Virus record (IMG/VR): IMGVR_UViG_3300029319_000682
Coordinates: 1 to 20,162 of that record
Reading direction: 5' to 3' (one strand)
Length of the DNA stretch: 20,162 bases
Source of the DNA: a virus
Positions 3,929-20,162 of the stretch are shown piece by piece. The position numbers and the translations under genes were made by a program. Each line of letters begins with the position of its first letter. The stretch's first letter is position 1. The notes below the pieces were generated by a model. That model was not told where the DNA came from, did no database searches, and saw only the letters and a program-made list of their open reading frames with translations.

Positions 3929-4492
3929 ATGGCACATGGTGATAGAGATTACATAGGTCTAAAACAAAGTATAATTGAAGCTAAAGAGAAAGCTGCTATA
4001 GCAACTGGAAATCCACCTCCTGATACAGGACCAAATTCTTATATTGCTTATGAGGCTGAATATATAGCTGACGCTATACTTGAGTGTTTAGTACAAGCTA
4101 ATTTTTCAGTAAAAACACTAAAAGCTCCTGTAATTGTTGAAACATTTAAATTACCAGAACAATTAGCAAATGTTGCAGTGGAAACTTTATTAGGTGAATA
4201 TGGGCCTCTATTAAAAACTTTAAAAAAAATAGCTGAACCACTTGGACTTGGTTCAGTTATTGATTCATTGGAAGAAGAAATTAGAAAGGCTGTATCTGCT
4301 GTTGTGGAAGGAGGTGCAGTTTTACCACCCACAGATGTTAGTAGAGATGATGGTGGATTGGATTCAACTGGTTATGTATTTATTGGAGAACCACCTGACT
4401 CTCAAGATGATTTTGACGTTGAAGATGATGAGGGAAAACAAGAACACACAGAAGTAGTTTTATTTAGAGAAGATGCGGAGAGATTAAAATAA
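3929..4492 (+). CDS. Putative baseplate-operon structural protein, unknown family
   Basis: This 187-residue protein has three parts. Residues 8-60 are helical with a Pro-rich break (NPPPDTGPN) and AYEAEYIADAILECLVQANF. A central hydrophobic and helical part (70-135) contains LGEYGPLLKTLKKIAEPLGLGS and AVSAVVEGGAVLPP; the latter is uncharged and mildly hydrophobic but not a convincing membrane segment. The C-terminal tail (138-175) is strongly acidic (DDFDVEDDEG). The stop codon overlaps the start of gp25 by one base in TAATG, so the two genes are translationally coupled. That context suggests a baseplate or hub component; no homolog is recognised. Confidence 0.75.
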   Translation: MAHGDRDYIGLKQSIIEAKEKAAIATGNPPPDTGPNSYIAYEAEYIADAILECLVQANFSVKTLKAPVIVETFKLPEQLANVAVETLLGEYGPLLKTLKKIAEPLGLGSVIDSLEEEIRKAVSAVVEGGAVLPPTDVSRDDGGLDSTGYVFIGEPPDSQDDFDVEDDEGKQEHTEVVLFREDAERLK

Positions 4493-4983
4493 TGGCTATT
4501 AAAGACACATCAAGAAAACCCTTTATTCAAGATAATGATACTAAAGTAAAAGTTGGTATTGATTTGCCAATTCGTAGAGGTGATGATTTAGATGGATTTT
4601 TTGCAACCACTTCAACAACCATTGAAGCTGTAAAAAACAATATAAGAAATTTATTACAAACAGAAGAGGGTGAAAGATTCTTTCAACCAAATTTAGGGTT
4701 AGGTTTAAAAAGATTATTATTTGAACATATCACAGATGAAAACTTATTTAGTGTTCAAAATGCTATACTGGATAAGTTTGAATTTTGGTTACCTTTTGTT
4801 GAAGTAAGAGATATACAGGTTTTAAGTAGAGATAATACAACAGATATTGGAGCAAATGAAATTAGAGTAAAAATAGATTTTAACATTAAACAAGACCCTA
4901 ACACTTTAGATTCAATCACATTAGATTTTTCAAGTGATGTATCTGAAACGGAATCAAGTGTAACAAGTGGAACTGGATATTAA
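4492..4983 (+). CDS. gp25: gp25-like baseplate wedge protein
   Basis: This 163-residue protein belongs to the GPW/gp25 family, an ancient lysozyme-fold-like wedge component of contractile tails and type VI secretion baseplates that helps nucleate sheath assembly. The family signature is plain: VKNNIRNLLQTEEGERFFQPNLG (47-69) followed by LKRLLFE (72-78), then the VEVRDIQVL strand (103-111) and IRVKIDF (124-130). T4 gp25 has 132 residues; the extra length is mainly an N-terminal extension and a Ser/Thr-rich tail (148-163). It starts inside the preceding stop codon and lies 13 bases before gp6, the usual gp25-gp6 order of T4-like phages. This is one of the two surest calls in the window. Confidence 0.93.
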   Translation: MAIKDTSRKPFIQDNDTKVKVGIDLPIRRGDDLDGFFATTSTTIEAVKNNIRNLLQTEEGERFFQPNLGLGLKRLLFEHITDENLFSVQNAILDKFEFWLPFVEVRDIQVLSRDNTTDIGANEIRVKIDFNIKQDPNTLDSITLDFSSDVSETESSVTSGTGY

Positions 4984-4996
4984 TTGGAGATAAAGT

Positions 4997-7234
4997 ATGC
5001 CAACATATGGTAAAGACAATTTTAAAGAATCAAATGTAAATTATTTAAATAAAGATTTTACAGCATTAAAAACATCTTTGATGAATTATGCTAAATCTTA
5101 TTTTCCAGATACCTATCGTGATTTCAATGAAACATCACCTGGTATGATGTTATTAGAAATGAATGCATATGTTGGTGATGTATTATCATTTTATATCGAC
5201 CAACAATATCGTGAGATGTTGTTACCCTTAGCAGAGGAGAGAAGAAACATAATCACAATGGCTAAGATGTTTGGTTATAAAGTTAAACCAATTGTACCAT
5301 CGTATATTGACTTAACTTTTACATCTGAAGTAAATGCTTCTAGTGGTGATGTGTCAAAAGTAGATTACTCTAACGCTGGTACGTTTGATGCTGGCATTGA
5401 AATAACTTCAGATACAAATTCTGATATAATATTTACAACACTCGAACCTATTGATTTTAGAGTATCTGCATCTAATGATACTGAAACCATTGGAACGACA
5501 GCTGATAGTGGTTTAGCCTCAACTTATACATTAACAAGAACTGTTAAAGCTATAAGTGCAACAGAAAAAACAATTTCATTTACCATTGGTAATCCTGAAA
5601 AATTTAAAACACTAACCATACCTGATACAAATGTTATTGACATTGTTTCTTGTGTGGATACAAATGGTAGTAATTGGTATGAGGTTGATTTTTTAGCACA
5701 AGATAAAGTTCCAATTGAAACACACTATACCGATGATGTGAATAGAGATTCAGCATACTCAACTGAAACTGGTGAAATAGGAGCTTCATTGGCTGTTCCT
5801 TATTCATTAACTTATATCACAACGACAAAAAGATTTACTCGTGAAACAAACCAAGATAACACAACTTCACTTGTTTTTGGTAATGGAGTGTTGAAAGATG
5901 GACAACTTGTAGACTCAGGATTTATTGATATGGAACAAGTTGGAATTGTAATACCTGGTCAAACAAACGATTTAAATGATTCAATTGACCCATTGTTAGG
6001 TAATGAATATTCAACACTTGGTGAAACACCAAACAATACAACTTTAACAATTACTTATCGTGTTGGTGGAGGAATTAATTCTAATGTTCCAGCCGAAGAT
6101 ATAACGTCCACACCAACAATAACAGCACAAAGTGGAAACACAAGTGCTACATTGACAAGTGTAACAAATAACACAGCAGCTCATGGTGGTAAAGATGAAG
6201 AAGATACAATTGAAATAAAAGAAAGAGCTAAAGCATTTTTCACAACACAAAACAGATGTGTGACAAAAGAAGACTATGAAGCTAGAGTATTAAACATACC
6301 AAGTAAGTTTGGTAACATAGCAAAAGCATATGTAACAAGAGAAGCCCCTACAATTGAAGGTGATACTAATTTAACACAAGTTAGTAATTACATTCAGTCA
6401 GTTTCAGACTTCGTAACTGGTCCTGGTGGTGTTATAGCTTATTTGAATAGTAATCTCAATGCATTTTCAAAAGAACAAGTTATTGCAGGTACATTAAATA
6501 TATTAAATAATATACCAACAGAAATACCTGATACAAGTAATTTAGCTAGAGAATTAGAATTAGGAACAGTAAACATTTATTTATTAGGTTATAATAACCA
6601 AAAACAATTAGTTGGAAATCCACATACAAGAACAACAGACCCTGATGGTGTAATAAATGATAAATTATCAGATACTTTATTATCAAATATAAAAAAATAT
6701 TTAGAAAACTTTAAATTAATGACTGATACTATTACATTAAATGATGGATACATTGTAAACTTTGGTGTGATGTTTGATGTCATAGCTGAAAAATATGCTA
6801 ACAAACAACAAGTTAAATTAAATTGTATTGAAAAAATTAAAGAATATTTTAGAATTGAAAAAATGCAATTCAATCAACCAATTTATAAAAGTCAATTAGA
6901 ATATGAATTAATGGGTGTTGAGGGTGTTCGTTCAATTGGACATGTTACCATAACCCAAGATAGAGATTATTTTTATGATGATGGTGAATCACTAACCTCA
7001 CCTACTTATACTTATTCACATACAAATGATACTGGGGTTGATTTAGATGGTGATGGTGTTAATGACCCTGGATATATCGTAGCTGATGGTGGAACGAGTG
7101 GTTATGGATATAAGTACAATTTTCAAATAGCATTATCAGATGATGGTACAATTATAGTTCCACCATTAGTGTCAACACCAACGGTTTTTGAATTAAAAAA
7201 TCCAAATCAAAACATACAAGGGAGAGTTAGATAA
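4997..7234 (+). CDS. gp6: gp6-like (baseplate J family) wedge protein
   Basis: This protein has 745 residues (T4 gp6 has 660). The N-terminus follows the gp6 pattern: VNYLNKDFTALKTSLMNYAK (14-33), TSPGMMLLEMNAYVGDVLSFYIDQ (46-69) and a MAKMFGYKV helix end (88-96). The core baseplate-J signature is at 396-428, with HGGKDEEDTIEIKERA, FFTTQNRCVTKEDYE. The C-terminal wedge domain is at about 588-655 (NFGVMFDVIAEKYANKQQV to GVEGVRSIGHVTI). gp6 dimers form the inner baseplate ring and transmit the contraction signal. The last about 85 residues are an addition: an acidic stretch with a calcium-loop-like DLDGDGVND (682-690) followed by a Gly/Tyr-rich part. An AATTGGAGAT ribosome site precedes the start, and the stop overlaps the next start by one base. 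Confidence 0.9.
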   Translation: MPTYGKDNFKESNVNYLNKDFTALKTSLMNYAKSYFPDTYRDFNETSPGMMLLEMNAYVGDVLSFYIDQQYREMLLPLAEERRNIITMAKMFGYKVKPIVPSYIDLTFTSEVNASSGDVSKVDYSNAGTFDAGIEITSDTNSDIIFTTLEPIDFRVSASNDTETIGTTADSGLASTYTLTRTVKAISATEKTISFTIGNPEKFKTLTIPDTNVIDIVSCVDTNGSNWYEVDFLAQDKVPIETHYTDDVNRDSAYSTETGEIGASLAVPYSLTYITTTKRFTRETNQDNTTSLVFGNGVLKDGQLVDSGFIDMEQVGIVIPGQTNDLNDSIDPLLGNEYSTLGETPNNTTLTITYRVGGGINSNVPAEDITSTPTITAQSGNTSATLTSVTNNTAAHGGKDEEDTIEIKERAKAFFTTQNRCVTKEDYEARVLNIPSKFGNIAKAYVTREAPTIEGDTNLTQVSNYIQSVSDFVTGPGGVIAYLNSNLNAFSKEQVIAGTLNILNNIPTEIPDTSNLARELELGTVNIYLLGYNNQKQLVGNPHTRTTDPDGVINDKLSDTLLSNIKKYLENFKLMTDTITLNDGYIVNFGVMFDVIAEKYANKQQVKLNCIEKIKEYFRIEKMQFNQPIYKSQLEYELMGVEGVRSIGHVTITQDRDYFYDDGESLTSPTYTYSHTNDTGVDLDGDGVNDPGYIVADGGTSGYGYKYNFQIALSDDGTIIVPPLVSTPTVFELKNPNQNIQGRVR

Positions 7235-8364
7235 TGCATCATTTTATTTTTCCAAATCAAGACACTTGGGTTTCAAGTGGTTCGTCAAATGTAACAGGTG
7301 AATCTTTCAAAGACCAAAACTTTGGACGAGACCAAATACTTGAAGTCAAAAAAGAATTTTATAATAATGCTTTTGATTATCCTACGAGAGCATTAGTTCA
7401 ATTTAGTGGAGATGAATTTACTGAATTGTCTAAATCATTATCGGATGGTACAATACCACTTCCTCAAACTGGTTCTACTGTAGGTTCTAAATTTTATTTA
7501 AGATTGTTTGAAGCTGAAGGTAATGCAGAAATGACTGAAGAATATAAGTTAGCTATTCGACCAATATCACAATCTTGGACAGAGGGAATAGGTAAGTTTG
7601 GTGATAATCCAAAAGTTACTAATGGTTGTAGTTGGGAAAATCGTAGTAATCCAATTGGTGGCACGGCTATTACTTGGGCTAATGCTGGTGTTACGGTTTT
7701 AACTGTAAGTAAATCAGAACAATCATTTTCTAATCAATCTCCTGACGTAAATGTAGAAGTGACTGATATGGTAAATATGTGGTATGAAGGACAAGAAGAA
7801 AATTATGGAATGTTAATAAACTTTAGTGGTAGTCAAGAAACCGATAGTGAAACATTTGGCCATTTAAAATTTTTCTCAAGAAACACACATACAATTTTTT
7901 CCCCAAAATTAGAAGTTCGTTGGGATGATTCATCATTTTCTACTGGTTCATTAAATGAATTAACAATGAGTGGATTAACTGATAACTTTTTGTATATGAA
8001 AGGATTAAGAGAAAGTTATAAAGTTGGTGAACGAGTTAAGTTTAGAGTTGGTGCAAGAAAAAGATATATTCAAAAAACTTTTTCTAACTCAGTTCAAACT
8101 GTAACTAATTCATTTATAACTAATGGTAGTGGTTCATATGCAATCAAAGATGTTGCAACTGATGAATTTATTGTTCCATTTGAAGACTCAACAGGAACAA
8201 GTTATACAAAACTTAGTTGTGATAGTAATTCAAATTATTTTATTCAATACTTAGATGGATTTTATCCTGATAGAGTTTATAAAATTTTATTAAAATTAAA
8301 ATACGATGATGGACAAGAACAAGTGTTTGATGATGATTTTGAATTTATAGTTAAAAGGAAGTAG
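7234..8364 (+). CDS. DNRLRE-domain baseplate/tail protein
   Basis: This protein has 376 residues. Residues about 5-231 follow the DNRLRE (CBM96-like) pattern in order: FPNQDTWV (6-13) with the following asparagine-rich loop, ALVQF (53-57), FYLRLFEAEG (87-96), the WTEG motif (115-118), CSWENR (132-137), VTDMVNMWYEG (176-186), YGMLINF (191-197), and FFSRNTHTIFSPKLEVRWDD (213-232). In bacteria this beta-sandwich domain is found in secreted polysaccharide-binding proteins. The remaining about 145 residues look like an Ig-like beta domain, starting at the YKVGERVKFRV strand (262-271) and ending in DDFEFIVKRK. Its place directly after gp6, with a TAATG overlap, suggests an outer baseplate component taking the position held in T4 by peripheral wedge proteins; the exact equivalence is inference. 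No catalytic residues are recognised. Confidence 0.7.
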   Translation: MHHFIFPNQDTWVSSGSSNVTGESFKDQNFGRDQILEVKKEFYNNAFDYPTRALVQFSGDEFTELSKSLSDGTIPLPQTGSTVGSKFYLRLFEAEGNAEMTEEYKLAIRPISQSWTEGIGKFGDNPKVTNGCSWENRSNPIGGTAITWANAGVTVLTVSKSEQSFSNQSPDVNVEVTDMVNMWYEGQEENYGMLINFSGSQETDSETFGHLKFFSRNTHTIFSPKLEVRWDDSSFSTGSLNELTMSGLTDNFLYMKGLRESYKVGERVKFRVGARKRYIQKTFSNSVQTVTNSFITNGSGSYAIKDVATDEFIVPFEDSTGTSYTKLSCDSNSNYFIQYLDGFYPDRVYKILLKLKYDDGQEQVFDDDFEFIVKRK

Positions 8365-8367
8365 ATT

Positions 8368-10107
8368 ATGGGTAATGAAAATTTAGAAAAATTATTAGAT
8401 TTAATCGCTGATGCTCTAATACAAAGTGATTATGTTGATACAACTAAAGTTAATAATTCACAAAAATTTATTCGTGATGGATTAATAAAATCAGGACAAG
8501 GTGGTGGAACTTTAGCATTGTTTCAAAGAGATATTAAGGCTAATGAAGAGGATGTGATTAATTCAATCACAGTTGAAACCAATGATGGAACGGTTCAACA
8601 AAATTTACAAGAGATAGCTAACAATTTAGAATTTTATTTAAACATGGAATCTCTTAATTTATCAATCGATGTTTCAGCTGATGGAAATATTTCTATAGTG
8701 GGTGGTGGTGATTACGATGGATATGATATAACAAGTTTATTAACAGAAGTTTCAACAAATGAAGATGAAACTTCAACTATTTTAAATCCATTAAATGTAA
8801 GTCAATTCATTCCATTGGAACAAAAACAATCCATTGTAGACGTTACTAAAGCCAATGAATTTCTTGATACAAATATATTTGAATTACTTCCAACAGGTGA
8901 TACAAGACAAGCTAGAATCGTTAGATTCTTTCAAGAATTAAATGCTTTACTTCCACCAAATACACCTGAATTTGATGGGGATGGAGATGGTAGAGTTGAT
9001 AGAAATATTGAAACCGATGAATGGACTGGTTCTTTACAATATTCCCAAGATAATAGTATTTCATATGCTCAAGATAATGATGATAGTAATATTGGTGAAG
9101 ATGAAGCATTTATTCATAGATTGAAATCAACAGCAAATTCAACAAATGAATCAACAACCATTGAGGATATTTACAATACAATACTTCCTTACTTAACCGA
9201 TTTATTAGAGGAAGAAGTTTTACCACAAGATGAGAGACCTCGTTATATAAATCAATCAAAAGGATATTTACAATTCAGAAATCCAAATCAGGGTATTATT
9301 GTTCGTAATACGAGTCAAGGATTTGTTGAAGGATTAGACCCAAATAATTTAACATATCTTAACACAGATGGGACTGGTGGTTTTACCATTACAATGTGGG
9401 TTAGATTTTTAGATAAAGTATCAAGTGGAACATTGTTTAATTTTGGTAATCCATTAAGAGAAGATAATCCATTTGGTTTTCGATTGGAAACTTACGTTAT
9501 AAATGGTAATGAACTACCAACAAGAATAAATGGAACAACTTATTTAGATGGTTATGGTTCAAGTAATCAAACTTGGAAAGAAATATTTCAAGATGGTGGT
9601 GGGTTTCAAAATAATGGAAATAGTTTAAATTATGATGGTCAAAGTGGTGGTGGTCTATCTTCCATACCTAACGAAGGATTTTTCAGTACATCCAATACTG
9701 AAAGGTTTGTGAGATTAGTTGTAAGAGAAGGTAATGGTGTTATAAGAGGTTCACATCTGGGAATGCCATTTTTCCGTAAAAGACAACAAGGATTACCTGA
9801 ATTTGGTTACTCTGATAATGAAGGTCCTGGAAACATTTATGACCACGCTTATGGGTTAATGACAAATACAAGAATACCTGAAGATTTTAATGAATGGTAT
9901 TTCATATGTGCAACCTATAATCCACTTGTTCAAGAAGACCAATCATTTACTTTAGGCAATGAAACATTGGAAAGAACACCTGAGTATTGGTTAAATCATT
10001 TACAACCCACTGGGGATTTTCAGAATTTTTCAGGTTTAGGAAATAGATGTAAAGTTGAAATCATATCTAAATCAGACTTACTACGAGCTCGTGGTTTTAG
10101 GACATAG
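8368..10107 (+). CDS. LamG-like lectin-fold virion protein
   Basis: This protein has 579 residues. Residues 1-100 are helical and polar, with LALFQRDIKANEEDVI near 50-65, probably the particle attachment part. Residues 203-211 form a calcium-loop-like DGDGDGRVD. From about 290 the protein looks like a concanavalin-A/LamG jelly roll: GGFTITMWVRF (337-347), a long Gly/Asn-rich excursion (about 390-430), then EDFNEWYFICATYN (505-518), matching the paired FT-W and W-hhxA-Y strands of LamG domains. It ends in KVEIISKSDLLRARG just before the C-terminus. LamG folds bind glycans or proteins, so a host-surface binding role is plausible. It starts 3 bases after the previous stop with an AAGGAAG ribosome site. 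The canonical final LamG strand is not clear, so the domain may be circularly arranged or incomplete. Confidence 0.7.
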   Translation: MGNENLEKLLDLIADALIQSDYVDTTKVNNSQKFIRDGLIKSGQGGGTLALFQRDIKANEEDVINSITVETNDGTVQQNLQEIANNLEFYLNMESLNLSIDVSADGNISIVGGGDYDGYDITSLLTEVSTNEDETSTILNPLNVSQFIPLEQKQSIVDVTKANEFLDTNIFELLPTGDTRQARIVRFFQELNALLPPNTPEFDGDGDGRVDRNIETDEWTGSLQYSQDNSISYAQDNDDSNIGEDEAFIHRLKSTANSTNESTTIEDIYNTILPYLTDLLEEEVLPQDERPRYINQSKGYLQFRNPNQGIIVRNTSQGFVEGLDPNNLTYLNTDGTGGFTITMWVRFLDKVSSGTLFNFGNPLREDNPFGFRLETYVINGNELPTRINGTTYLDGYGSSNQTWKEIFQDGGGFQNNGNSLNYDGQSGGGLSSIPNEGFFSTSNTERFVRLVVREGNGVIRGSHLGMPFFRKRQQGLPEFGYSDNEGPGNIYDHAYGLMTNTRIPEDFNEWYFICATYNPLVQEDQSFTLGNETLERTPEYWLNHLQPTGDFQNFSGLGNRCKVEIISKSDLLRARGFRT

Positions 10108-10110
10108 ACA

Positions 10111-13100
10111 ATGGCTCTCTTAGGAAAAACTGTAATAAAACCATTTGATGGAACTGATTCTGAAGACGGAAATGGATTTGGATTTCGTCAGAATACTGAT
10201 TCTAACGAAGTTCTAAATACCAGTTTTCTTTATGGTCCAAAAGAGAATGCTCGTGATTTTCCAGTTTCTGACCCAATATCAACTCTAATAGATACTAGTA
10301 CCAGTAGAAGAAATTCTTCAAATAATTCCATAGGACATTATATCAATATACAGGATGAATGGATACAAATAATTGGTGTACAATCTAAAAAATTTCCTGA
10401 CACCTGGTTTGGTTTTTACCATAGTGAATTTCTAATAGAACGAGACATTTTTAATACTTTAGATTTATCAACATATGAAGGTTATGCAGAAGGAACTGAA
10501 GTAAGATTTTATACTGAACTTCCTGAAGATGTTAAAGAATTTTATGGTATTGGTGCATCTGCAGAAGATGAATCTCTTGAAACTTATTCCTTTGAAATAG
10601 AGCAAACATCAAATAATTTTGGTGTAGATGGTTATCAAATAGAACAAACAATTTTAAATCCATTTAATCCATTTAAAGGTATGGATATAGATATTAATGA
10701 ATTTCAAAATACAAATCAAGGCCTTGAAAATTCTAATAATGATGGTAGAATTGAACTAGGTATGTTTTCATTTGATGATGATAATTTGGCCTCTGACAAT
10801 TTTCCGAATATTTTAGCACCACCATTTATAGGGATTAATAAAAGAAATTTAGTAAACAATGGTGATTGTAAATTTGTAAAAGAAGCTTTGGAAGTAGATG
10901 ATGATGGAATATCAGTAATTGTAGAACCTGAAGGTGATTGGAGATTTTTATCTTTAAAAAGAACTCCTCCTGATAGTCAATTTAGTGATGAACAAATACC
11001 CTGGAGCACTTGGTATACGGATGGTGATGCACAAGGATTTATAGCTTATGGTGGTAAACTTACATATGTCCCTTTATCAAAGAATCAAATTACAACTGAA
11101 ACTTCATATTGGGGAAATATAACAAATGGTGGTATTAATCCAGCTAATAAAATATCTAATTTATTTTCACCAGGTGGTAATCAATCTACCATTAATGGAG
11201 ATTTAAATGCAGGTACTATTCAAACTTATTGGAGAGATACTTATAGAATTCAATCCCAAACATTTCAAAATCAAGAAGTACCACATATTGCAGCTTGGAT
11301 AGTATCAGATGAAGCTTTTTCTAATTCTAAATGTTTATGTTTTATGAATTTTCAAATTTGGGATAGAGCAAAACTTTATGGTTATTTAAATCCAGATGAG
11401 GATGAAGGATATGTTTTTAATTATTTATTACCTGACCTTCGTCATAATGAAGGTATAGTTACGGAAAATATTGATGATTCAGAATTTTTACCTGACCATA
11501 TAGATAATCAATACAGAGTATTAAATCAAGTTCAAAAAATCTATGATAAATTCAATGATGAACCATTGAATCCATATAGTTCATTAAAGATAAGATTTAA
11601 AATGAAAACCACACATGTGTTACCACCTGCTAATTCATTTGATGATGGTGAAGACGCTATGGACTTTCAAGATAATCCATTAAATAATTATGCACCAAAA
11701 GTTGAAATTGGTATTTTACAATCTCAATTTGAAGAAACACCAAAAACAGGTTTAAAAGGTTTACCTCCTTTAGGGTGGAATGAATATTTTAAAGCACCTG
11801 GAAGTTGGAACTCCGAAAGATATTTTAATGCAAACACTTACGAAGAAAAACGCTTTTCAGAAATAGGTGGTATGTCAAGATTTCAAAATTCTATAATGGA
11901 TGAATGGGAGACATTTGAATTTACATACAATTTATCAAATGAACATAATAATAGAGGAGAAATATATGGAGTTCCATATGGTGGTGCGTTTGATGATGAA
12001 TTTAATAGTGGTTCAGTTGAAATAATGTTAAATCATAATGCTGATGGTGGACTTCCAAACCCAAATTCAGGTGAAATATATTTTAAAGTTCCAGGTTATC
12101 AAGATGATGACACCGCATTAACTGATTCTGAAGGTAACCCTATTTTTTACATGCTTTCACCACACCAAGTTGATGAGAATCAAAACCCAATACGAGTTTC
12201 TGTTCAACATGGGCCAAGAAATACTAATGATTATATGGTGGTAGCTAGTGACTTAGGTGACTCCGATGGTGGTGGTGGTAATTTGAAAACTGGACTTCTA
12301 GATGATGGAACATTTCTTGAAGCTTATTTAATGTATGTTGGTGGTAATTCGTTTGGTAACCAATTACCAATGAATGATGGTATAGACTATATAGCTTTTC
12401 CTGATATAGTTGTTGCGTATTGGGATGGTGAACGATGGAGTTATGATAATAATCAAGGATATAGTACAAGTAGAACATTTACACCAGATGATATGTGTTT
12501 CATCATAGCTAGATTATATCGTAGTCCTATTGAAGAATCAGATGGGATTAGTGGAATGGACCAATACATTAGTAATGAATCTCAATATTCAACTGGTGGT
12601 TTAGGTAATTTGTCTTTATTTATACAATCAGGAAATAATTTTCAAGGTAGAGTATTGATAGATGATATTGAGTGTTTTGAATCTTATGAGTTTATACCTG
12701 ATGTAGATGTTAGAAAAAAATTATCAGTTGGTAATTATGCAAATGCAGAACTAACGAATTATTATGATAAAAAATTATCACCAGAAGAGTATAAAAACAC
12801 TCAAGCTCCATTAGAAGCTCAATTTTATTTTTATCCACAATATCCAACTGAAGAAACATTTGTAGAAAGATTACCTATTTATAATGACTTTAAAAAAGGT
12901 AAATTTTATGTTTATGATATTAATTGGGGTGATGGTTCACCAAATGAATTTACATCTGAACCTGAACAAATAGGTGAAAGTGTGGCATTATATCACACAT
13001 ATGAAACAAGCGGTATATTCGAAGTTACAGGAACAATGATAAGAGTAAAACTTGATAAAGATGATGAAATAGTTGGTATTGCTCATAATAAAAAATTTAA

Positions 13101-14463
13101 ATTAAGAATTAATGTAAATCCTGGATTAGATGAAGATTTTAAATATTTTGGAAGTGATGGTTTTTCATTTATTCCATTTGAAGAAACTGTACCAATCATA
13201 GGTGGAATATCAGAACAGAGTAATTATTATAAAACATTAAAAAGACAACTTGGATTTTTAGATAATGAAAAAATTAACATAGAGTTTAAAAATAAAAGTG
13301 ATAAACTAAAAACAGAAATAGCTCTTGTAAAAATGGAAAATCAAGTTGATGGGGATTTAGAAGTGTTGCCAGATTATATGATACAAAGAGAAGATGAAAA
13401 TGGAGATTTTATATATAATGGAATTTCAACAATTAGAGAAGAATTAGGAAAAGGAATTGGTGATTGTGATTTATCAACTATAAAGTATTACAATGAACCA
13501 AAATCAATTTGGGAATTGTTTGGATTTGAGGAAGAAGATTTAGAACAAGTTGGAAATCCAGATGAACCAAGATATTGGAAAAACATCATACCTAAACACT
13601 ATGATATATCAACTAGAAATGGATTAACAAATGAATTAACAGTTCGTATTGGTGGTAGACAAGATGGTGAAAACGGAACACCTCCACATTATAATATTAT
13701 TATAAATGGAGTAAAATATTATGATGGATTTGTTGAAGATTCTGTCACAGATGGTGCACCAAGTGGTGGGCAATATGATTCTATTGATTTCAATATTCCA
13801 ATCGATAGAAGTTTAGACATTCAAGAAATAAGAATTAATTATGATAATAATGGAACACCATCTATTATTGAAGGTGATAGAAATCTATATGTTAGTTATA
13901 TACGAATAAATGGTGTAACTTTTGATGGAAGAACAACAGCTGATGTAAGTACTCATAATGATATTAATGTGTATTATGATAGTGTAGGTTGGTACAATTG
14001 GATAGAAAATAATCCAAACCAAACATCTTATAATGAAAATGGTATAAATGCGGGTGGAAGTATGGCTTGGAATGGTGATATGGTTTTTGAAATTCCAACA
14101 AAATATTTTAAAACCACTATAGATTTTTCATCAGAACAAGAATGGATTAATGATTATTACTATCCTGTATTACCAAAGTTTAGAGCGGATGGTACATTTT
14201 CAAATACAGAGATTACAAATCAAAACATTAAATTTCCAATACTTGGAGAGATAACTAACGAAAGTGAAAAAAATGAAAATTTATTAATTAATTTAGTTAA
14301 TGAAAAAATAGAAGTTGATGTTATAAATGATAATAGTGGAAATAAAAGTTATGGATTTTTTATTCAAGATTTTAAACCAGAATTTGATGAAAAAACATTA
14401 AGAGTTAAGAAAAACAAAAAAAGAAGTAAAGTTAATAGTTCTAAAGTTAATGGGGCGTTTTAA
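10111..14463 (+). CDS. Giant modular tail/baseplate adhesin with CBM4/9-like, PKD and CBM36/60-like domains
   Basis: This protein has 1450 residues, all apparently beta-rich. Residues 1-240 have no known match. At 246-252 RNLVNNGD resembles the start of CBM4/9-type jelly rolls, and the matching end, LSLFIQSG to VLIDDIECFE (about 835-857), comes 600 residues later, suggesting a jelly roll with large insertions. A PKD domain follows (about 895-1000), with INWGDGSP (937-944) and YHTYETSGIFEVTGT (961-975). Next come PIIGGISE (1028-1035), a Lys-rich helical region, and GKGIGDCDL (1114-1121) through NEPKSIWELFGF. Residues about 1173-1320 look like a calcium-dependent CBM36/60-type domain, with GDRNLYVSYIRING (1255-1268). 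The C-terminus carries SGN, then GFFIQDFK, a basic stretch and a terminal NGAF. The region from PKD onward has a paralogue in the next gene. It is probably a fibre-like outer tail protein; no enzyme motif is seen. Confidence 0.65.
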   Translation: MALLGKTVIKPFDGTDSEDGNGFGFRQNTDSNEVLNTSFLYGPKENARDFPVSDPISTLIDTSTSRRNSSNNSIGHYINIQDEWIQIIGVQSKKFPDTWFGFYHSEFLIERDIFNTLDLSTYEGYAEGTEVRFYTELPEDVKEFYGIGASAEDESLETYSFEIEQTSNNFGVDGYQIEQTILNPFNPFKGMDIDINEFQNTNQGLENSNNDGRIELGMFSFDDDNLASDNFPNILAPPFIGINKRNLVNNGDCKFVKEALEVDDDGISVIVEPEGDWRFLSLKRTPPDSQFSDEQIPWSTWYTDGDAQGFIAYGGKLTYVPLSKNQITTETSYWGNITNGGINPANKISNLFSPGGNQSTINGDLNAGTIQTYWRDTYRIQSQTFQNQEVPHIAAWIVSDEAFSNSKCLCFMNFQIWDRAKLYGYLNPDEDEGYVFNYLLPDLRHNEGIVTENIDDSEFLPDHIDNQYRVLNQVQKIYDKFNDEPLNPYSSLKIRFKMKTTHVLPPANSFDDGEDAMDFQDNPLNNYAPKVEIGILQSQFEETPKTGLKGLPPLGWNEYFKAPGSWNSERYFNANTYEEKRFSEIGGMSRFQNSIMDEWETFEFTYNLSNEHNNRGEIYGVPYGGAFDDEFNSGSVEIMLNHNADGGLPNPNSGEIYFKVPGYQDDDTALTDSEGNPIFYMLSPHQVDENQNPIRVSVQHGPRNTNDYMVVASDLGDSDGGGGNLKTGLLDDGTFLEAYLMYVGGNSFGNQLPMNDGIDYIAFPDIVVAYWDGERWSYDNNQGYSTSRTFTPDDMCFIIARLYRSPIEESDGISGMDQYISNESQYSTGGLGNLSLFIQSGNNFQGRVLIDDIECFESYEFIPDVDVRKKLSVGNYANAELTNYYDKKLSPEEYKNTQAPLEAQFYFYPQYPTEETFVERLPIYNDFKKGKFYVYDINWGDGSPNEFTSEPEQIGESVALYHTYETSGIFEVTGTMIRVKLDKDDEIVGIAHNKKFKLRINVNPGLDEDFKYFGSDGFSFIPFEETVPIIGGISEQSNYYKTLKRQLGFLDNEKINIEFKNKSDKLKTEIALVKMENQVDGDLEVLPDYMIQREDENGDFIYNGISTIREELGKGIGDCDLSTIKYYNEPKSIWELFGFEEEDLEQVGNPDEPRYWKNIIPKHYDISTRNGLTNELTVRIGGRQDGENGTPPHYNIIINGVKYYDGFVEDSVTDGAPSGGQYDSIDFNIPIDRSLDIQEIRINYDNNGTPSIIEGDRNLYVSYIRINGVTFDGRTTADVSTHNDINVYYDSVGWYNWIENNPNQTSYNENGINAGGSMAWNGDMVFEIPTKYFKTTIDFSSEQEWINDYYYPVLPKFRADGTFSNTEITNQNIKFPILGEITNESEKNENLLINLVNEKIEVDVINDNSGNKSYGFFIQDFKPEFDEKTLRVKKNKKRSKVNSSKVNGAF
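12901..14460 (+). repeat. Homologous C-terminal module, copy A (protein-level duplication)
   Basis: This stretch encodes a PKD domain, PIIGGISE, GKGIGDCDL, YYNEPKSIWELF, the SGN/GFFIQDFK block and a basic tail ending in NGAF. The same blocks occur in the same order at the end of the next gene. Copy A is longer because about 150 residues resembling CBM36/60 interrupt it after the IWELF block. The similarity is visible in protein, not in DNA, so the duplication is old. Confidence 0.7.
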
Positions 14464-17006
14464 TGGCTGAAAAGAAAATAGTAGTTGATAAACCTGAAAT
14501 AGGTGATATAAGTCAATATAATTTTGTAGATGGATATGCAGAAAACCCACCTATATATGAGGACTCAACTAGTTTACCAGAAAACAATGATAAATTTCAA
14601 AACAAAGACTTATTCACGAAATGTGTAGGTGATAAAGTCAATGAAGCTATTATTGAAAAAAATTTAAAGTTTGAAGGTGAATCTGAAATTAAAATAGAAA
14701 ACTTGTACATTGCAAATACAGGTGTAGGAGGCACTGTAAAAAATAATCACGTTACTGGTTGGATTTTTTCTCAAGAGGCTTATGGTGGTGACCCAACAAA
14801 TGATGGATATTCTACAATAAGAGATAAAATGAAAGATGAATGGAAATTTTATTCACAAGGATTTGGTAATAAATCTGAAGGAACAGATATTGGTAACATT
14901 ACTGAAGTGGAAGGAACTCCAATTGTATCTAATTTTAGTGTAGATTCTGCAGCAATTATATTAGGTGACATTGAAGGAAGGACATTAAACTTTAATAACT
15001 TAGACCCTCAAAATGAAACTACTCCAAGTGGTTTAAATGCTTTTGAATTAAATGGTTCAGAAACCACACCTGCCAATACATCTATATTTAATGAAGACCA
15101 ATATAATCCTATTTATATTTGTATTTATACAAAAGGTGATAAAAAAGTAGCTTGGCCTGTTAATACTGATAGTAGGAGAAAAAAATATTCAATTTTTAAA
15201 ATAAGTAGTGATGATTTATTTGAAAAAGTAGGTGATAATTATATTGGTAAAGTGTATCAAAATAATTTCACCAGTCCTACAAGAACAAGAACTGGTGATG
15301 GTGGTGGTGGAGCTACACAAGCTGCGTGGAGAGTAACATCTTTACAAATATCAATAAATACATCGGCGGGAGTATCAAATAACTTTTCTGATGTTTCAAC
15401 TTATCAAGAATTTATACCATTGGTTTTACCACAAAGTAAAATTACTGAAAATAGTTTTAATAGTATTGAATGGTTAGCCGCTACAAATCCAGCAACTCAA
15501 CTTGATAATTCACAAGAATCTGGAACTGATGGTGCATTATTTAGACATCCTGATTTCTTACCTTTTACAACATTTGGATTTAGTCAGAATAATTCTTTAG
15601 GAACATCTTATGTTGATTTACAAGATTATAACTATGATTTTACTTCTATCATAAAAGCATCAAGTCCATTAAATGTAACATTTAATTTAAGTATAAAAGA
15701 TGTTAATGGAATGAGTTTATCATCTTTAGAATATGTAACATTTACTGGTGATGATGTAAACCCATATGTTATACTACGAGATGAAACTGATGCTCAAGAA
15801 TTAATTTCAAATTATGATGAACAATTGTCTAATAATCCAGATTACAATCCTCCACCATTTATTAATGCTTATGAACATAATATACAAAGAGTTGCAGAAA
15901 TTTTAAAATCTAAAAATCCTCTATATCAAGAAATGGAGTATTATAATATTGAAGTTGCAAGTGTACCTGGTGCAATAACATATAATGAAAGTGATAATAA
16001 ATGGGTGGGTTTTAATCCAAATCCACATGGAGTAATAACTTCAATGACATTTAGTTATCAATCTACTGAAACTGAATCTGAAGAATATCAAAATGTGTAT
16101 TATTATTTTATAATTGATTGGAATGATATTGATGATAAATTTAAAACCATTGAAGATTGGTTAGATTCAAAACCAGAAAATACATTTGATTACTTGGAAA
16201 GACAAAATCAAAATTTATACAAAATTTATTCTACAAAGGATTCAAATACACCAAATAATGTTTATACATCACCTGGAATAAAAAATATAAAATTTATTAT
16301 GTTTAGTGTTTTTGATGGTGATGGAACAGAAGATTCTCCTGATTTTGAAATTGGAAGATGGAAACTTTGTACATCAAGAATTTATATTGACATCCCACCA
16401 AATCAATATCCTGATTTTGGTGATGTTGGTGGAAGTGATTACACAACACTTCCATGGCCTTTTACAACTCCAATAATTGGTGGTGTTAGTGAAGATTCAA
16501 AATATAAAAAAAGTATTCAAAACACATTAGGTGGTGGAAAAATAGGTGAGTTAGATATTATAGATGAAAGATTTTTAATTAATGATTTAGAAAATGATGA
16601 AATGGGAAAAAATATAGAAACAATGGATTTAGAACAATGTAGGTATTTTGATAAACCATATGGTATTTATAATTTACTTAATATTGATGCAGTTATAAAT
16701 AATGAACTAATACCATTTAATGATTTATATTATGATGGTGATATAAATAAATTTCCGATGGAAAGTTCAGTCGGACAGATATTTATAAGTGATAATCAGG
16801 ACTTGGATTTAAAACAAAGTTGTAAATTAGAATTAAATACAGGTGAAACACTTGACAAATCTATTTTAGATACAAGTGGTAACTCAAATAAAGGATTATT
16901 AATTGGTGACTATAAAATTAAAAAAGTTAAAAAAGGTCAATCCATGAGAAGAGACTCATTCATAAAAGTTCCTAAAAAGGCCAGTAATAGAAACGGAGCA
17001 TTATAA
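14463..17006 (+). CDS. Large tail/baseplate protein, paralogous at its C-terminus to the upstream giant protein
   Basis: This 847-residue protein starts inside the stop codon of the giant gene (TAATG). Residues 1-500 are polar, beta-rich and unrecognised, with a Gly-rich stretch encoded near 15295-15315. A degenerate PKD-like domain spans about 515-620: FIIDWNDIDD (549-558) takes the place of the WGDG motif, and a PGIKNIKFIMFSVF strand pair (604-617) ends in a DGDGTED loop (618-624). PIIGGVSEDSKYKKSI (670-685), GKNIETMDL (715-723), RYFDKPYGIYNL (727-738), then SGN, GLLIGDYK and a basic tail ending in NGAL follow, matching the blocks of the 1450-residue protein in the same order. It is probably the partner or alternative of that protein at an equivalent point in the particle. 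It lacks the CBM36/60-like insert. The stop overlaps the next start by one base. Confidence 0.65.
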   Translation: MAEKKIVVDKPEIGDISQYNFVDGYAENPPIYEDSTSLPENNDKFQNKDLFTKCVGDKVNEAIIEKNLKFEGESEIKIENLYIANTGVGGTVKNNHVTGWIFSQEAYGGDPTNDGYSTIRDKMKDEWKFYSQGFGNKSEGTDIGNITEVEGTPIVSNFSVDSAAIILGDIEGRTLNFNNLDPQNETTPSGLNAFELNGSETTPANTSIFNEDQYNPIYICIYTKGDKKVAWPVNTDSRRKKYSIFKISSDDLFEKVGDNYIGKVYQNNFTSPTRTRTGDGGGGATQAAWRVTSLQISINTSAGVSNNFSDVSTYQEFIPLVLPQSKITENSFNSIEWLAATNPATQLDNSQESGTDGALFRHPDFLPFTTFGFSQNNSLGTSYVDLQDYNYDFTSIIKASSPLNVTFNLSIKDVNGMSLSSLEYVTFTGDDVNPYVILRDETDAQELISNYDEQLSNNPDYNPPPFINAYEHNIQRVAEILKSKNPLYQEMEYYNIEVASVPGAITYNESDNKWVGFNPNPHGVITSMTFSYQSTETESEEYQNVYYYFIIDWNDIDDKFKTIEDWLDSKPENTFDYLERQNQNLYKIYSTKDSNTPNNVYTSPGIKNIKFIMFSVFDGDGTEDSPDFEIGRWKLCTSRIYIDIPPNQYPDFGDVGGSDYTTLPWPFTTPIIGGVSEDSKYKKSIQNTLGGGKIGELDIIDERFLINDLENDEMGKNIETMDLEQCRYFDKPYGIYNLLNIDAVINNELIPFNDLYYDGDINKFPMESSVGQIFISDNQDLDLKQSCKLELNTGETLDKSILDTSGNSNKGLLIGDYKIKKVKKGQSMRRDSFIKVPKKASNRNGAL
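16107..17003 (+). repeat. Homologous C-terminal module, copy B (protein-level duplication)
   Basis: This is the short version of the module: degenerate PKD, PIIGGVSE, GKNIETMDL, RYFDKPYGIYNL, SGN/GLLIGDYK and a Lys/Arg-rich tail ending in NGAL. Compared with copy A it lacks the carbohydrate-binding-like insert and part of the Lys-rich helical region. Confidence 0.7.
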
Positions 17007-20000
17007 TGCCAGATTTTGAATTTGAATTTAATCAACAAGATAAAGATTTAATTGTCAATCAATCAGCTGGAGAATTTGGTAATAACGATTATATGCGTTT
17101 AACCATTTATCCAAGTGAAACGATAAATCAAGTTGTTACCTTACAAGATAATACAAAAGGTATTGATGGTAAGGCTATATTCTTCTCTACTTTATTTGAA
17201 GGTCCTTTTTCTATCAATGTATCACCATTTACTAATGATAATAGTTTTGATACTAAAATAATTGGTAATGATAATGTAAATGATTTTAAAATTTATAAAA
17301 ATCCTAATGGTGGTATTTACATTAAACCAAATGAAATATTTAATAAATTTGAATTACCTCAAGGTGATTATAGAATACAAATTGATTTCTTAAATCAATT
17401 TTCCAAAGGACAAGTATCTCAACAATCATTACCAATACCTTATTGGTTTGAAGATTTTGATTTTAACGGTGATGGTATTGTTAATGTTGTTGATGTATCA
17501 GCATGGAATCAAGTAGGTAGAACGGATATTGGTAATTTAATTCTTGCTAATATTGCTGGAACTGCAGATGACCCACCATCGTATTATGCAGAAAGTGATA
17601 GTCAAGAGGGACAACAGGGACAACAAGGTGGTGGTCAAGAAGGTGGTACTGATTTTGAAACAAATCCTCTTAGAGGACCTGAATATTATTATTCTGAAAA
17701 TTTAAATCCGAACGCTGTTGTTCATTATAATTTTATTATAAAACAAATATCAACTTCAAGAAAAGAAGTTCGTTTAAAAATTTTTGATGAACCTATATTA
17801 AATGATTCGGATTTTATCACTAATTTAACAAATGAATTAAATCAAAATACTAATACTTATCAATTCAAACATGTATTAAACATTGGAACTGGTGACCACA
17901 ATCCAATAATGAATTATCAGTTTGATGCAGTTACAGATGGTAAAAATAATCAATCCATAATATTAAAGTTATATGAACCATTGGCAAATAATGTTAATAC
18001 CTTATCTCCTGTAACTATTGAAAAGGAAGTATTAACAACACAAATACAAGATATATATTATTTTTCAGATGTTCCTGAAGTATTTTTTGGTGATGGGTTA
18101 CAACCAGACCCACAAGAAAATTGGATAAATCCTGATGGTAATATTATTGGATTTGAAAACTATAATCAAATAGCCATATCATCATCAATTGAAAACACAA
18201 CAATAGATAGTATAATATCATCAAGTGAATATGGTTATCCAAGTTTAAACACAGATTTTAATGAATTTTCAAATCATACTTTTTTTGGTTCTGCTAAAAA
18301 GAAATTAGAAAACTTTAAAACAAAAGTTGAAACCATTCAAGGATTTTATACAAATATATCAAGTTCATTAAGTAGTAGTGGTATATCAATGACTGGTGAT
18401 AACAATGAGTTAATTCAAAGAAGAAAAAATTTATTTGAAAAAATAGAAAAAGAATTTAGAACATTTACACCATATGAAAGATTTTTATATTTTGATGGAC
18501 AAAGTAATACAACTGCATCTGCACCAAGTTTAACAAATTATGCTGATACCAAACCTGTTCGATTCGATGGTGATACTCTTGAGTTAAGTCAACATAATGG
18601 ATTCAATACCGTTTATAAATTTTCATCTGAAAAAATATCAAGTGTTCATGACCAATTTATACATTTATTTACTGATAAATACAAAGTACAAAACAAACCA
18701 TTTTTTAATTATAGTGGTTCAATTTATTTATCATTTTTATTACAAGGTGATAGTGGTAGTGCTTTATCTTGGGATACATATGGACAAACAACTGCAGGTA
18801 ACGGACTTGGTGTACCATTACCAAATGATGCATTACACCAAAATAGAATTTTAGAACCATTAATTACAGGAAGTGAATATAGACGTTTTATTTATGAAGC
18901 CTCTCAATCATATTGGATACCAAATCAAAACATAGATTTTTCTGATTTACCAACAATTGATAACAATGGTGAACTTATTGATAGTAGTAATGTAACTTTT
19001 TTACATACAAATATAAAAACAGGTTCTTATCAAATTAATGATTCTACTGGACAATATCCAACAACAGTTGTAACTCAAAGTGGAGCTCCATTTTTTGGAG
19101 CATGTATGCCAGCTGGTGAATTGTTTAGAATTTATAATAAAAACAATTTATCTGCAAGTTTATTTGCTCATTACAATTATGAAAACATTACCATTGATGA
19201 TAGAGATTTTGAAGTACTTGACGTTAGTGGTAATAATAGAACTATTTCTTGGGATGGTGGTTCAACTGATTCATTCACATCAGCCTCTGTAGAAACTGGT
19301 GTGGATGGTAAAATATCATCATCATTGAAATGGAGTGGTAGTAATGCTGGTGCTTCTGGATTATTTTATTTTAACTCTAATATTGATAATGAAGCAGGTA
19401 GAGTAACATTCACAACATCTTCAGGTGTAGACCAAGGCTTTGATGGATTTACATTTACCTCTTGGTTAAAAACTGAAGATACAAACATAACAATTATGTC
19501 CTTAGACATTAAGTCTTCAGGTAGTGGTGTGCAAGATAATGTAGCAGTAAATCATTCATCTCTTGATGATGTGGATGGTTGGTGGGTAGGAAAAAGTGGT
19601 GCAAGTATACAAGGACAAGTAACCGACCAAGGCCACAAAGTATTGAATAAATCTGATTTTAAAGTTAATCCAAGTAATGCAGATTTAACCGATAATGAAT
19701 TTCACCATTATGCTTTATCTTGGAATCAAACCACTGGTACGGGTTCTCTTTACATTGATGGTGTTAATGTTAAAACTTTAGCTGGTTATCCATTATCAGG
19801 TAGTAATGTAATATATAGAATAAGAGTTGGAAATGGACCAGGTAGTGCATTAGGATATGGTGATGGTCAATTTGATGAAACAAGATTTTATTTACGTTCA
19901 CTTAACGATAGTGAAATAAATCAATTGTTTTTACATCCTGATGGAAAAACAGAAACAAAAATTACAGATGTAAAACTAACATTAAAAGACCCAACTAATG

Positions 20001-20162
20001 TTTTACCATTTGATAACATTTATAAAACAACTTCAACTGAGTGGACTAATTGGTATAATGATATGTTAACAAAAGCAGAAACATTTGATACTGATAACAT
20101 ACATTCATTTGAAAACAATCTACCTCTTTACATTCAAGAAAGTTCTGAATACAATGATATGA
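17006..20162 (+). CDS. Giant virion protein with dockerin-like loop and LamG domain, 3' end beyond the window
   Basis: This open frame runs at least 1052 codons to the window edge with no stop. The start overlaps the previous stop (TAATG) and has GGAG at 16995-16998, 7 bases upstream. Residues 1-145 are beta-rich. Residues 152-163 form a calcium loop with exact dockerin type I spacing: D152, N154, D156-G157, N160, D163. A Gln/Gly linker follows (200-214). Residues about 430-475 are a basic helical stretch leading into TPYERFLYFDGQ. A LamG-like jelly roll spans about 722-978, with FTFTSWLKT (815-823), EFHHYALSWN (898-907), GSLYIDGVNV, FDETRFYLRSLNDSEI and LFLHP. The last visible residues read NNLPLYIQESSEYNDM, so another domain begins at the edge. 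It is likely a tail or baseplate adhesin. The single calcium loop may be structural rather than a true dockerin. Function is inferred from architecture and operon position. Confidence 0.7.
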   Translation, partial: MPDFEFEFNQQDKDLIVNQSAGEFGNNDYMRLTIYPSETINQVVTLQDNTKGIDGKAIFFSTLFEGPFSINVSPFTNDNSFDTKIIGNDNVNDFKIYKNPNGGIYIKPNEIFNKFELPQGDYRIQIDFLNQFSKGQVSQQSLPIPYWFEDFDFNGDGIVNVVDVSAWNQVGRTDIGNLILANIAGTADDPPSYYAESDSQEGQQGQQGGGQEGGTDFETNPLRGPEYYYSENLNPNAVVHYNFIIKQISTSRKEVRLKIFDEPILNDSDFITNLTNELNQNTNTYQFKHVLNIGTGDHNPIMNYQFDAVTDGKNNQSIILKLYEPLANNVNTLSPVTIEKEVLTTQIQDIYYFSDVPEVFFGDGLQPDPQENWINPDGNIIGFENYNQIAISSSIENTTIDSIISSSEYGYPSLNTDFNEFSNHTFFGSAKKKLENFKTKVETIQGFYTNISSSLSSSGISMTGDNNELIQRRKNLFEKIEKEFRTFTPYERFLYFDGQSNTTASAPSLTNYADTKPVRFDGDTLELSQHNGFNTVYKFSSEKISSVHDQFIHLFTDKYKVQNKPFFNYSGSIYLSFLLQGDSGSALSWDTYGQTTAGNGLGVPLPNDALHQNRILEPLITGSEYRRFIYEASQSYWIPNQNIDFSDLPTIDNNGELIDSSNVTFLHTNIKTGSYQINDSTGQYPTTVVTQSGAPFFGACMPAGELFRIYNKNNLSASLFAHYNYENITIDDRDFEVLDVSGNNRTISWDGGSTDSFTSASVETGVDGKISSSLKWSGSNAGASGLFYFNSNIDNEAGRVTFTTSSGVDQGFDGFTFTSWLKTEDTNITIMSLDIKSSGSGVQDNVAVNHSSLDDVDGWWVGKSGASIQGQVTDQGHKVLNKSDFKVNPSNADLTDNEFHHYALSWNQTTGTGSLYIDGVNVKTLAGYPLSGSNVIYRIRVGNGPGSALGYGDGQFDETRFYLRSLNDSEINQLFLHPDGKTETKITDVKLTLKDPTNVLPFDNIYKTTSTEWTNWYNDMLTKAETFDTDNIHSFENNLPLYIQESSEYNDM
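17459..17494 (+). other. Dockerin-type calcium-binding loop coding segment
   Basis: The segment encodes a 12-residue loop with acidic or amide ligands at positions 1, 3, 5, 9 and 12 and Gly at 6, the spacing of dockerin type I repeats. A hydrophobic helix start (VSAWNQV) follows. Only one copy is present, whereas a complete dockerin has two. Confidence 0.6.
17603..17647 (+). repeat. Gln/Gly-rich linker coded by short imperfect repeats
   Basis: Imperfect 9-base units of the type GGACAACAG encode a Gln-Glu-Gly linker (residues 200-214), placed between the calcium loop region and the rest of the giant protein. It is probably a flexible hinge and may vary in copy number between relatives. Confidence 0.6.

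Follow-up and report, generated by a model that had tools for sequence, protein, structure and literature searches.

Carbohydrate-binding modules on probable baseplate wedge proteins encoded after gp25 and gp6 in an uncultured tailed phage

The baseplates of the Bacillus myophages Vp4 and Deep-Blue are described as carrying multiple carbohydrate-binding modules (CBMs), with one wedge protein that binds cells and a CBM-less homologue that does not (PMC11406892). Comparable modules have been reported in lactococcal skunaviruses, where CBMs inserted into the evolved Dit protein promote adsorption to exopolysaccharide-bearing hosts (PMC10688798), and in AlgoCIS, a contractile system of a marine bacterium whose baseplate component Alg11 is described with two CBMs (PMC8894135). 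Here we analysed the whole of IMG/VR record IMGVR_UViG_3300029319_000682 (the window; 20,162 bases), which derives from an uncultured tailed phage and contains an array of genes next to gp25-like and gp6-like baseplate wedge genes. Our literature search, which chiefly covered papers outside subscription journals, returned no paper on CBM inserts in such gp25–gp6 phages.

The main open reading frames of the window all lie on the plus strand, and five consecutive ones, here called A to E, stand directly 3' of gp6, as the sequence-only reading of this DNA had proposed:

4492..4983 (+), gp25-like baseplate wedge gene, used as anchor (PHROG 261, E 3.7e-19)
4997..7234 (+), gp6-like baseplate wedge gene, used as anchor (PHROG 219, E 3.3e-23)
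7234..8364 (+), gene A, 376 aa, encoding a conserved tail protein that bears CBM96 (Pfam and homologues)
7249-7587 (+), N-terminal CBM96 (DNRLRE-type) domain of A (Pfam 1.5e-7)
8368..10107 (+), gene B, 579 aa, without a confirmed domain, conserved among environmental relatives
10111..14463 (+), gene C, 1450 aa, with a CBM4-like jelly roll, a PKD-like domain, a CBM60 insert and a D-related module
10861..12684 (+), CBM4-like jelly-roll match in C, aa 251-858 (VIA-align Z 12.6)
13624..14139 (+), site in C at which CBM60 is inserted, aa 1172-1343 (Pfam CBM60 2.2e-7, aa 1176-1274)
14463..17006 (+), gene D, 847 aa, with a C-related C-terminal half, aa 384-742 (hhalign)
17006..20162 (+), gene E, >1052 aa, probable wedge-type protein; the contig ends inside the gene
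17387..17734 (+), variable insert of E that bears the dockerin/EF-hand-like motif DFNGDGIVNVVD, aa 128-243
19409..19921 (+), LamG domain at a variable insertion site within E, aa 802-972 (Pfam Laminin_G_3 3e-11)

At positions 7234, 14463 and 17006, consecutive genes share a single base, which ends one and starts the next, and the tight packing after gp25–gp6 suggests a single transcription unit. Because the contig end falls inside E, this gene is truncated and its remainder lies beyond what is seen of the window phage; complete E proteins of relatives comprise 1586–2056 aa.

With gp6 as query, viral_contigs yielded 208 relatives, and with A 126; whole-protein queries of the same collection recovered only 7 relatives of C and 5 of D. 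The order gp6–A–B–C–D–E recurs in the environmental relatives that are long enough to show it, with two exceptions: in one contig gp6 and A are separated by a fibre-like gene (L033:5163-10231), and in another, represented by both L132 and L023, two diverged A genes flank such a gene (L132:2446-8296). In the isolated phages immuto and Mel-JY01, the gene right after gp6 is homologous to A over its full length (30–31% identity), and residues 207–518 of E are homologous to genes of 1265 and 1336 aa just downstream (E-values 2e-6 and 3e-6, respectively). In immuto, which is cultured on Flavobacterium sp. LMO8, the homologues of A and E are gp111 and gp109. Given these homologues, A and the body of E look like old tail genes. 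BLAST of B, C and D at the same two loci gave no match and, as far as BLAST can see, these three genes appear specific to the environmental lineage. By tblastn against phages, A matched 6 records, while C and E matched none. A profile search of genome_contigs with A found no relative, and a photosystem family (PF00124) was found in 0 of 12 records.

Several of the domains originally read from the letters were recovered by profile searches. The DNRLRE domain of A corresponds to CBM96 (PF24517), which exceeds its curated Pfam cut-off (31.9 bits, cut-off 26), spans only profile positions 6–88 of 164 and is present in 28 of 31 A members (member counts refer to chosen subsets in which near-duplicates were reduced). 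Likewise, the CBM36/60-like insert was borne out by CBM60 (PF16841), which passes its curated cut-off in C (31.7 bits versus 28.2). Two LamG-like domains had also been proposed, of which the one in E was confirmed by Laminin_G_3 (PF13385; 44.1 bits versus a cut-off of 27.6) and is shared by 7 of 18 E members, but the one in B was not: Pfam found no Laminin_G_3 in the window's B and a single match among 34 B members (E 0.043), and hhalign of B against the LamG of E gave no match. For D of the window, no named domain was found with PHROG or Pfam. Its residues 384–742 form a common module with residues 879–1141 of C (hhalign probability 98.7), and the similar C-terminal ends of the two proteins (...NGAF, 14440-14463, and ...NGAL, 16980-17006) are in line with such a common C-terminal module. 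Hint/intein-type domains occurred in 1 of 28 C members and 1 of 20 D members. PHROG searches with the window's A to E returned nothing convincing (best 0.032), and PDB profile searches with each of the five families nothing credible (best E 0.014). A, B and E were also aligned by hhalign with T4 gp7, gp8 and gp10 and P2 gpI and showed no match, which is weak as a negative because each target was one sequence.

We further compared an AlphaFold model of C, which covers residues 251–1450 and is of moderate quality (mean pLDDT 59.5, with large parts below 50), with known structures. In VIA-align, model residues 1–608 matched CBM4-2 with Z 12.6 over 151 residues, and the same part also matched CBM16, CBM22 and a porphyran-binding CBM; promeprin and Eph receptors, which are non-CBM sandwiches, reached Z scores near those of the CBMs, and a phi812 baseplate chain was among the matches (Z 10.8). 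Pfam CBM_4_9 was detected in 1 of 28 C members (E 0.0023), a match from which the window's C is absent. The proposed CBM4/9-like jelly roll is thus favoured by the strength of the CBM4-2 match but tempered by the low pLDDT and the near-equal scores of unrelated sandwiches. Model residues 924–1078 matched vCBM60 (Z 8.8, 22% identity). The PKD spacers of the sequence-only reading found similar, partial backing: the PKD structure 4xed matched the C model in Foldseek (probability 1.00, target TM 0.56, E 0.028), but the profile match in C was weak (E 0.29), and PF00801 appeared below its cut-off in one relative and was absent from the window's Pfam table. A Foldseek viral search with this model returned long matches of low TM without clear meaning, and single-sequence PDB searches with the CBM60 insert and the LamG of E gave nothing credible. 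One relative encodes a 3693-aa protein in the position of C (L148:6578-17656, minus strand), far above other C lengths, in which a sub-cut-off PKD was the sole match.

The model of E (pLDDT 43.5) was unusable, being too poor for a fold search. Of 24 distinct environmental relatives, 22 had a Tail_P2_I (PF09684) match in E at the same profile positions, with scores of 10.8–16.8 bits (E 5.5e-5 to 3.4e-3), none of which reaches the cut-off of 20.6; the matched stretch of the relatives' E falls beyond the window end. Among control genomes, 6 of 14 also matched, 2 of them above the cut-off, and there was no match in immuto, Mel-JY01 or T4. P2 gpI, T4 gp7, A511 gp104 and pyocin PA0619 are described as the BW3 protein, with a role in receptor-binding protein attachment (PMC10811340), and E is probably a BW3-like wedge protein. 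A PHROG search of the E relatives gave single weak matches only.

Two of the binding modules sit at sites that vary between relatives. The CBM60 stretch of C measures 123–207 aa in 11 of 28 proteins and 42–60 aa in the other 17, with Pfam CBM60 itself found in 4 of 28 members. For the LamG stretch of E (n = 26), 14 proteins were long, 9 short and 3 undetermined. On a tree of E that left out poorly filled columns, and the insert with them, at least five state changes are needed at the LamG site, four of them forced by starred branches, and the tree row nearest to the window (L151) is without the LamG insert. LamG labels showed some clustering on this tree (in 500 shuffles, 19 gave a value as low), which is what one would expect if inserts are inherited. 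The dockerin/EF-hand-like motif belongs to a second insert of E, in the window and in some relatives. One relative has a different large protein (L149:906-5036) with a Dockerin_1 match below its cut-off (E 0.0003).

From these observations, we read A to E as structural proteins of a contractile tail, probably belonging to the outer baseplate wedge and its decorations, several of which bear exchangeable CBMs that would grip host glycans beside separate fibres (rough probability, 0.6). Supporting this reading, the genes form one tight array directly after gp25 and gp6 whose order is kept in environmental relatives, and A at full length and part of E are homologous to post-gp6 genes of two isolated phages. 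Further support comes from CBM96, CBM60 and Laminin_G_3 matches above Pfam cut-offs, from CBM4-like and CBM60 folds in the C model, and from inserts that are present or absent between relatives at constant sites. The sub-threshold Tail_P2_I matches in 22 of 24 E relatives point the same way, P2 gpI being described as BW3 (PMC10811340), as does the CBM-fold wedge protein of a Bacillus phage, which is reported to bind cells where a CBM-less homologue shows no binding (PMC11406892). For A to E themselves, we infer presence in the virion, location in the wedge, glycan binding and a step in adhesion. The device itself would be built of conserved parts (A, the E body and the C-terminal module common to C and D), and the carbohydrate-binding modules would project from it, CBM96 of A as a fixed one and the CBM4-like module and CBM60 of C and LamG of E as variable ones. 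At cell contact, many weak sugar contacts would then keep the baseplate attached to glycans of the surface or capsule, and specific receptor contact would be made by the separate tail fibres. The domain content and the constant place after gp25–gp6 are consistent with the earlier idea of a multivalent carbohydrate-binding device without an enzyme in the five genes. Calling all five genes a toolkit was too strong: binding modules were confirmed in A, C and E but B and D are without a confirmed binding domain, conserved tail genes account for A and part of E, and CBM60 and LamG come and go.

Jelly rolls and Ig-like folds often serve as scaffolds. The sandwich domains could accordingly be purely structural, lectin-like folds that act in the baseplate as spacers or protein-protein mounts and bind no sugar, and the near-CBM scores of unrelated sandwiches on the C model, the restriction of the CBM96 match in A to profile positions 6–88 of 164 and its retention in 28 of 31 A members, as would be expected of a structural part, are all compatible with this explanation. 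However, the CBM60 and LamG inserts vary and can be dispensed with, unlike core mounts, and both exceed the curated cut-offs of carbohydrate-binding or lectin-fold families, which makes a purely structural role rather unlikely.

The sequence-only reading had gone further and suggested that a dedicated multivalent lectin array replaces simple tail fibres as the adsorption organ, in keeping with the several binding modules of the window and its lack of a recognised fibre gene. The relatives tell a different story. In G001, the record that extends furthest downstream, E is followed by three genes of 232–374 aa without a PHROG match, then by RuvC-like, primase and SbcC-like genes, and after these by a separate 2044-aa protein that matches PHROG tail-fibre families (best 4.8e-23). 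When searched in 12 environmental records, this fibre matched G001 and G002; G004, which reaches as far downstream, gave no match, a point in favour of fibre replacement, and the other records stop earlier. Partial matches were found in immuto and Mel-JY01, and the fibre-like genes of L132 and L033 lie inside the block itself. The window is only a fragment, so that its own fibre genes cannot be seen there. As relatives carry separate fibre genes, replacement of the fibres is not supported, and we regard it as quite improbable. Instead, the fibre gene of G001 and G002, together with the partial matches, suggests that the adsorption device likely consists of fibres plus a CBM-bearing baseplate.

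The earlier observation that no hydrolase is visible was upheld. No glycosidase, lyase or lysozyme exceeded its Pfam cut-off in the five window proteins, and a Pfam scan of 131 family members (A 31, B 34, C 28, D 20 and E 18, complete E included), read for each family as the first member's table plus the families that most members match, listed no credible hydrolase; nor was one found in the 3693-aa C. Glyco_hydro_16 scored below its cut-off in the part of E that holds LamG (18 bits versus 22, E 0.0021), a search of E for the GH16 ExDxxE motif found it absent, and a single ExDxxE-type motif in D (aa 441) was without a supporting profile. Among A members, 2 of 31 matched Glyco_hydro_78_N (best E 0.0053), which from its name we take to be a non-catalytic N-terminal domain, and 1 of 31 matched the glycosyltransferase family Branch (E 0.00034). 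We regard the Glyco_hydro_16, Glyco_hydro_78_N and Branch matches as due to chance or a shared fold. No beta-helix depolymerase was among the C-model matches listed by Foldseek and VIA-align, and no long regular parallel-strand pattern was evident in the confident parts of this model, the only usable one. That one of the five proteins hides an unrecognised depolymerase or hydrolase, such that the device cuts as well as binds, draws on the unassigned folds of B and D, the low-pLDDT parts of C, the truncation of E and its sub-cut-off Glyco_hydro_16 match, but is very improbable given the member lists without a credible hydrolase, the missing GH16 motif in E and the lack of evident long parallel strands in C.

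Extending the reading of A to E as CBM-bearing baseplate proteins, it is possible, and we suggest it tentatively, that a widespread lineage of uncultured myophages has made its outer baseplate a chassis whose fixed sockets, of which C would hold at least one and E one or two, accept exchangeable modules, and that preference for coat polysaccharides thereby evolves in the baseplate, uncoupled from the fibres. Such sockets would take LamG and CBM60, as glycan-binding modules, and dockerin-like modules. If true, carbohydrate-decorated baseplates would reach beyond phages of Gram-positive hosts to a large uncultured gp25–gp6 lineage, and the fixed, comparable insertion sites would let module identity be matched against host polysaccharides.

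Finally, we compared the locus with the described systems. Like the window as read here, Deep-Blue and Vp4 are described as having several CBM-fold tail proteins beside separate receptor-binding proteins, CBMs on the wedge protein of one phage that are absent in its relative's, and a PKD domain within the tail module, to which the putative PKD-like domain of C would correspond; they differ in their Gram-positive hosts, in having CBM16/22-like modules rather than CBM96, CBM60 and LamG, and in that binding was shown there, whereas it is a prediction for the window (PMC11406892). The evolved Dit shares the principle of carbohydrate-binding insertions in a tail-tip protein that are absent in other relatives, but it belongs to non-contractile tails and to the Dit protein, and is likened here by description alone (PMC10688798). 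Alg11 of AlgoCIS is a CBM-bearing baseplate component of a contractile system, but that system is an injection system and not a phage, and its CBMs are described as forming a spike cage (PMC8894135). Closest in gene content are immuto, which infects Flavobacterium, and Mel-JY01, which infects Microcystis: both have the gp25–gp6–A order, a full-length A and a partial E homologue, but carry one gene of 112 or 413 aa where B, C and D would stand, and their E homologue is without the LamG insert. Likened by description, the window would thus work as known CBM-bearing tails do, in a distant lineage, with other modules and at other insertion sites.
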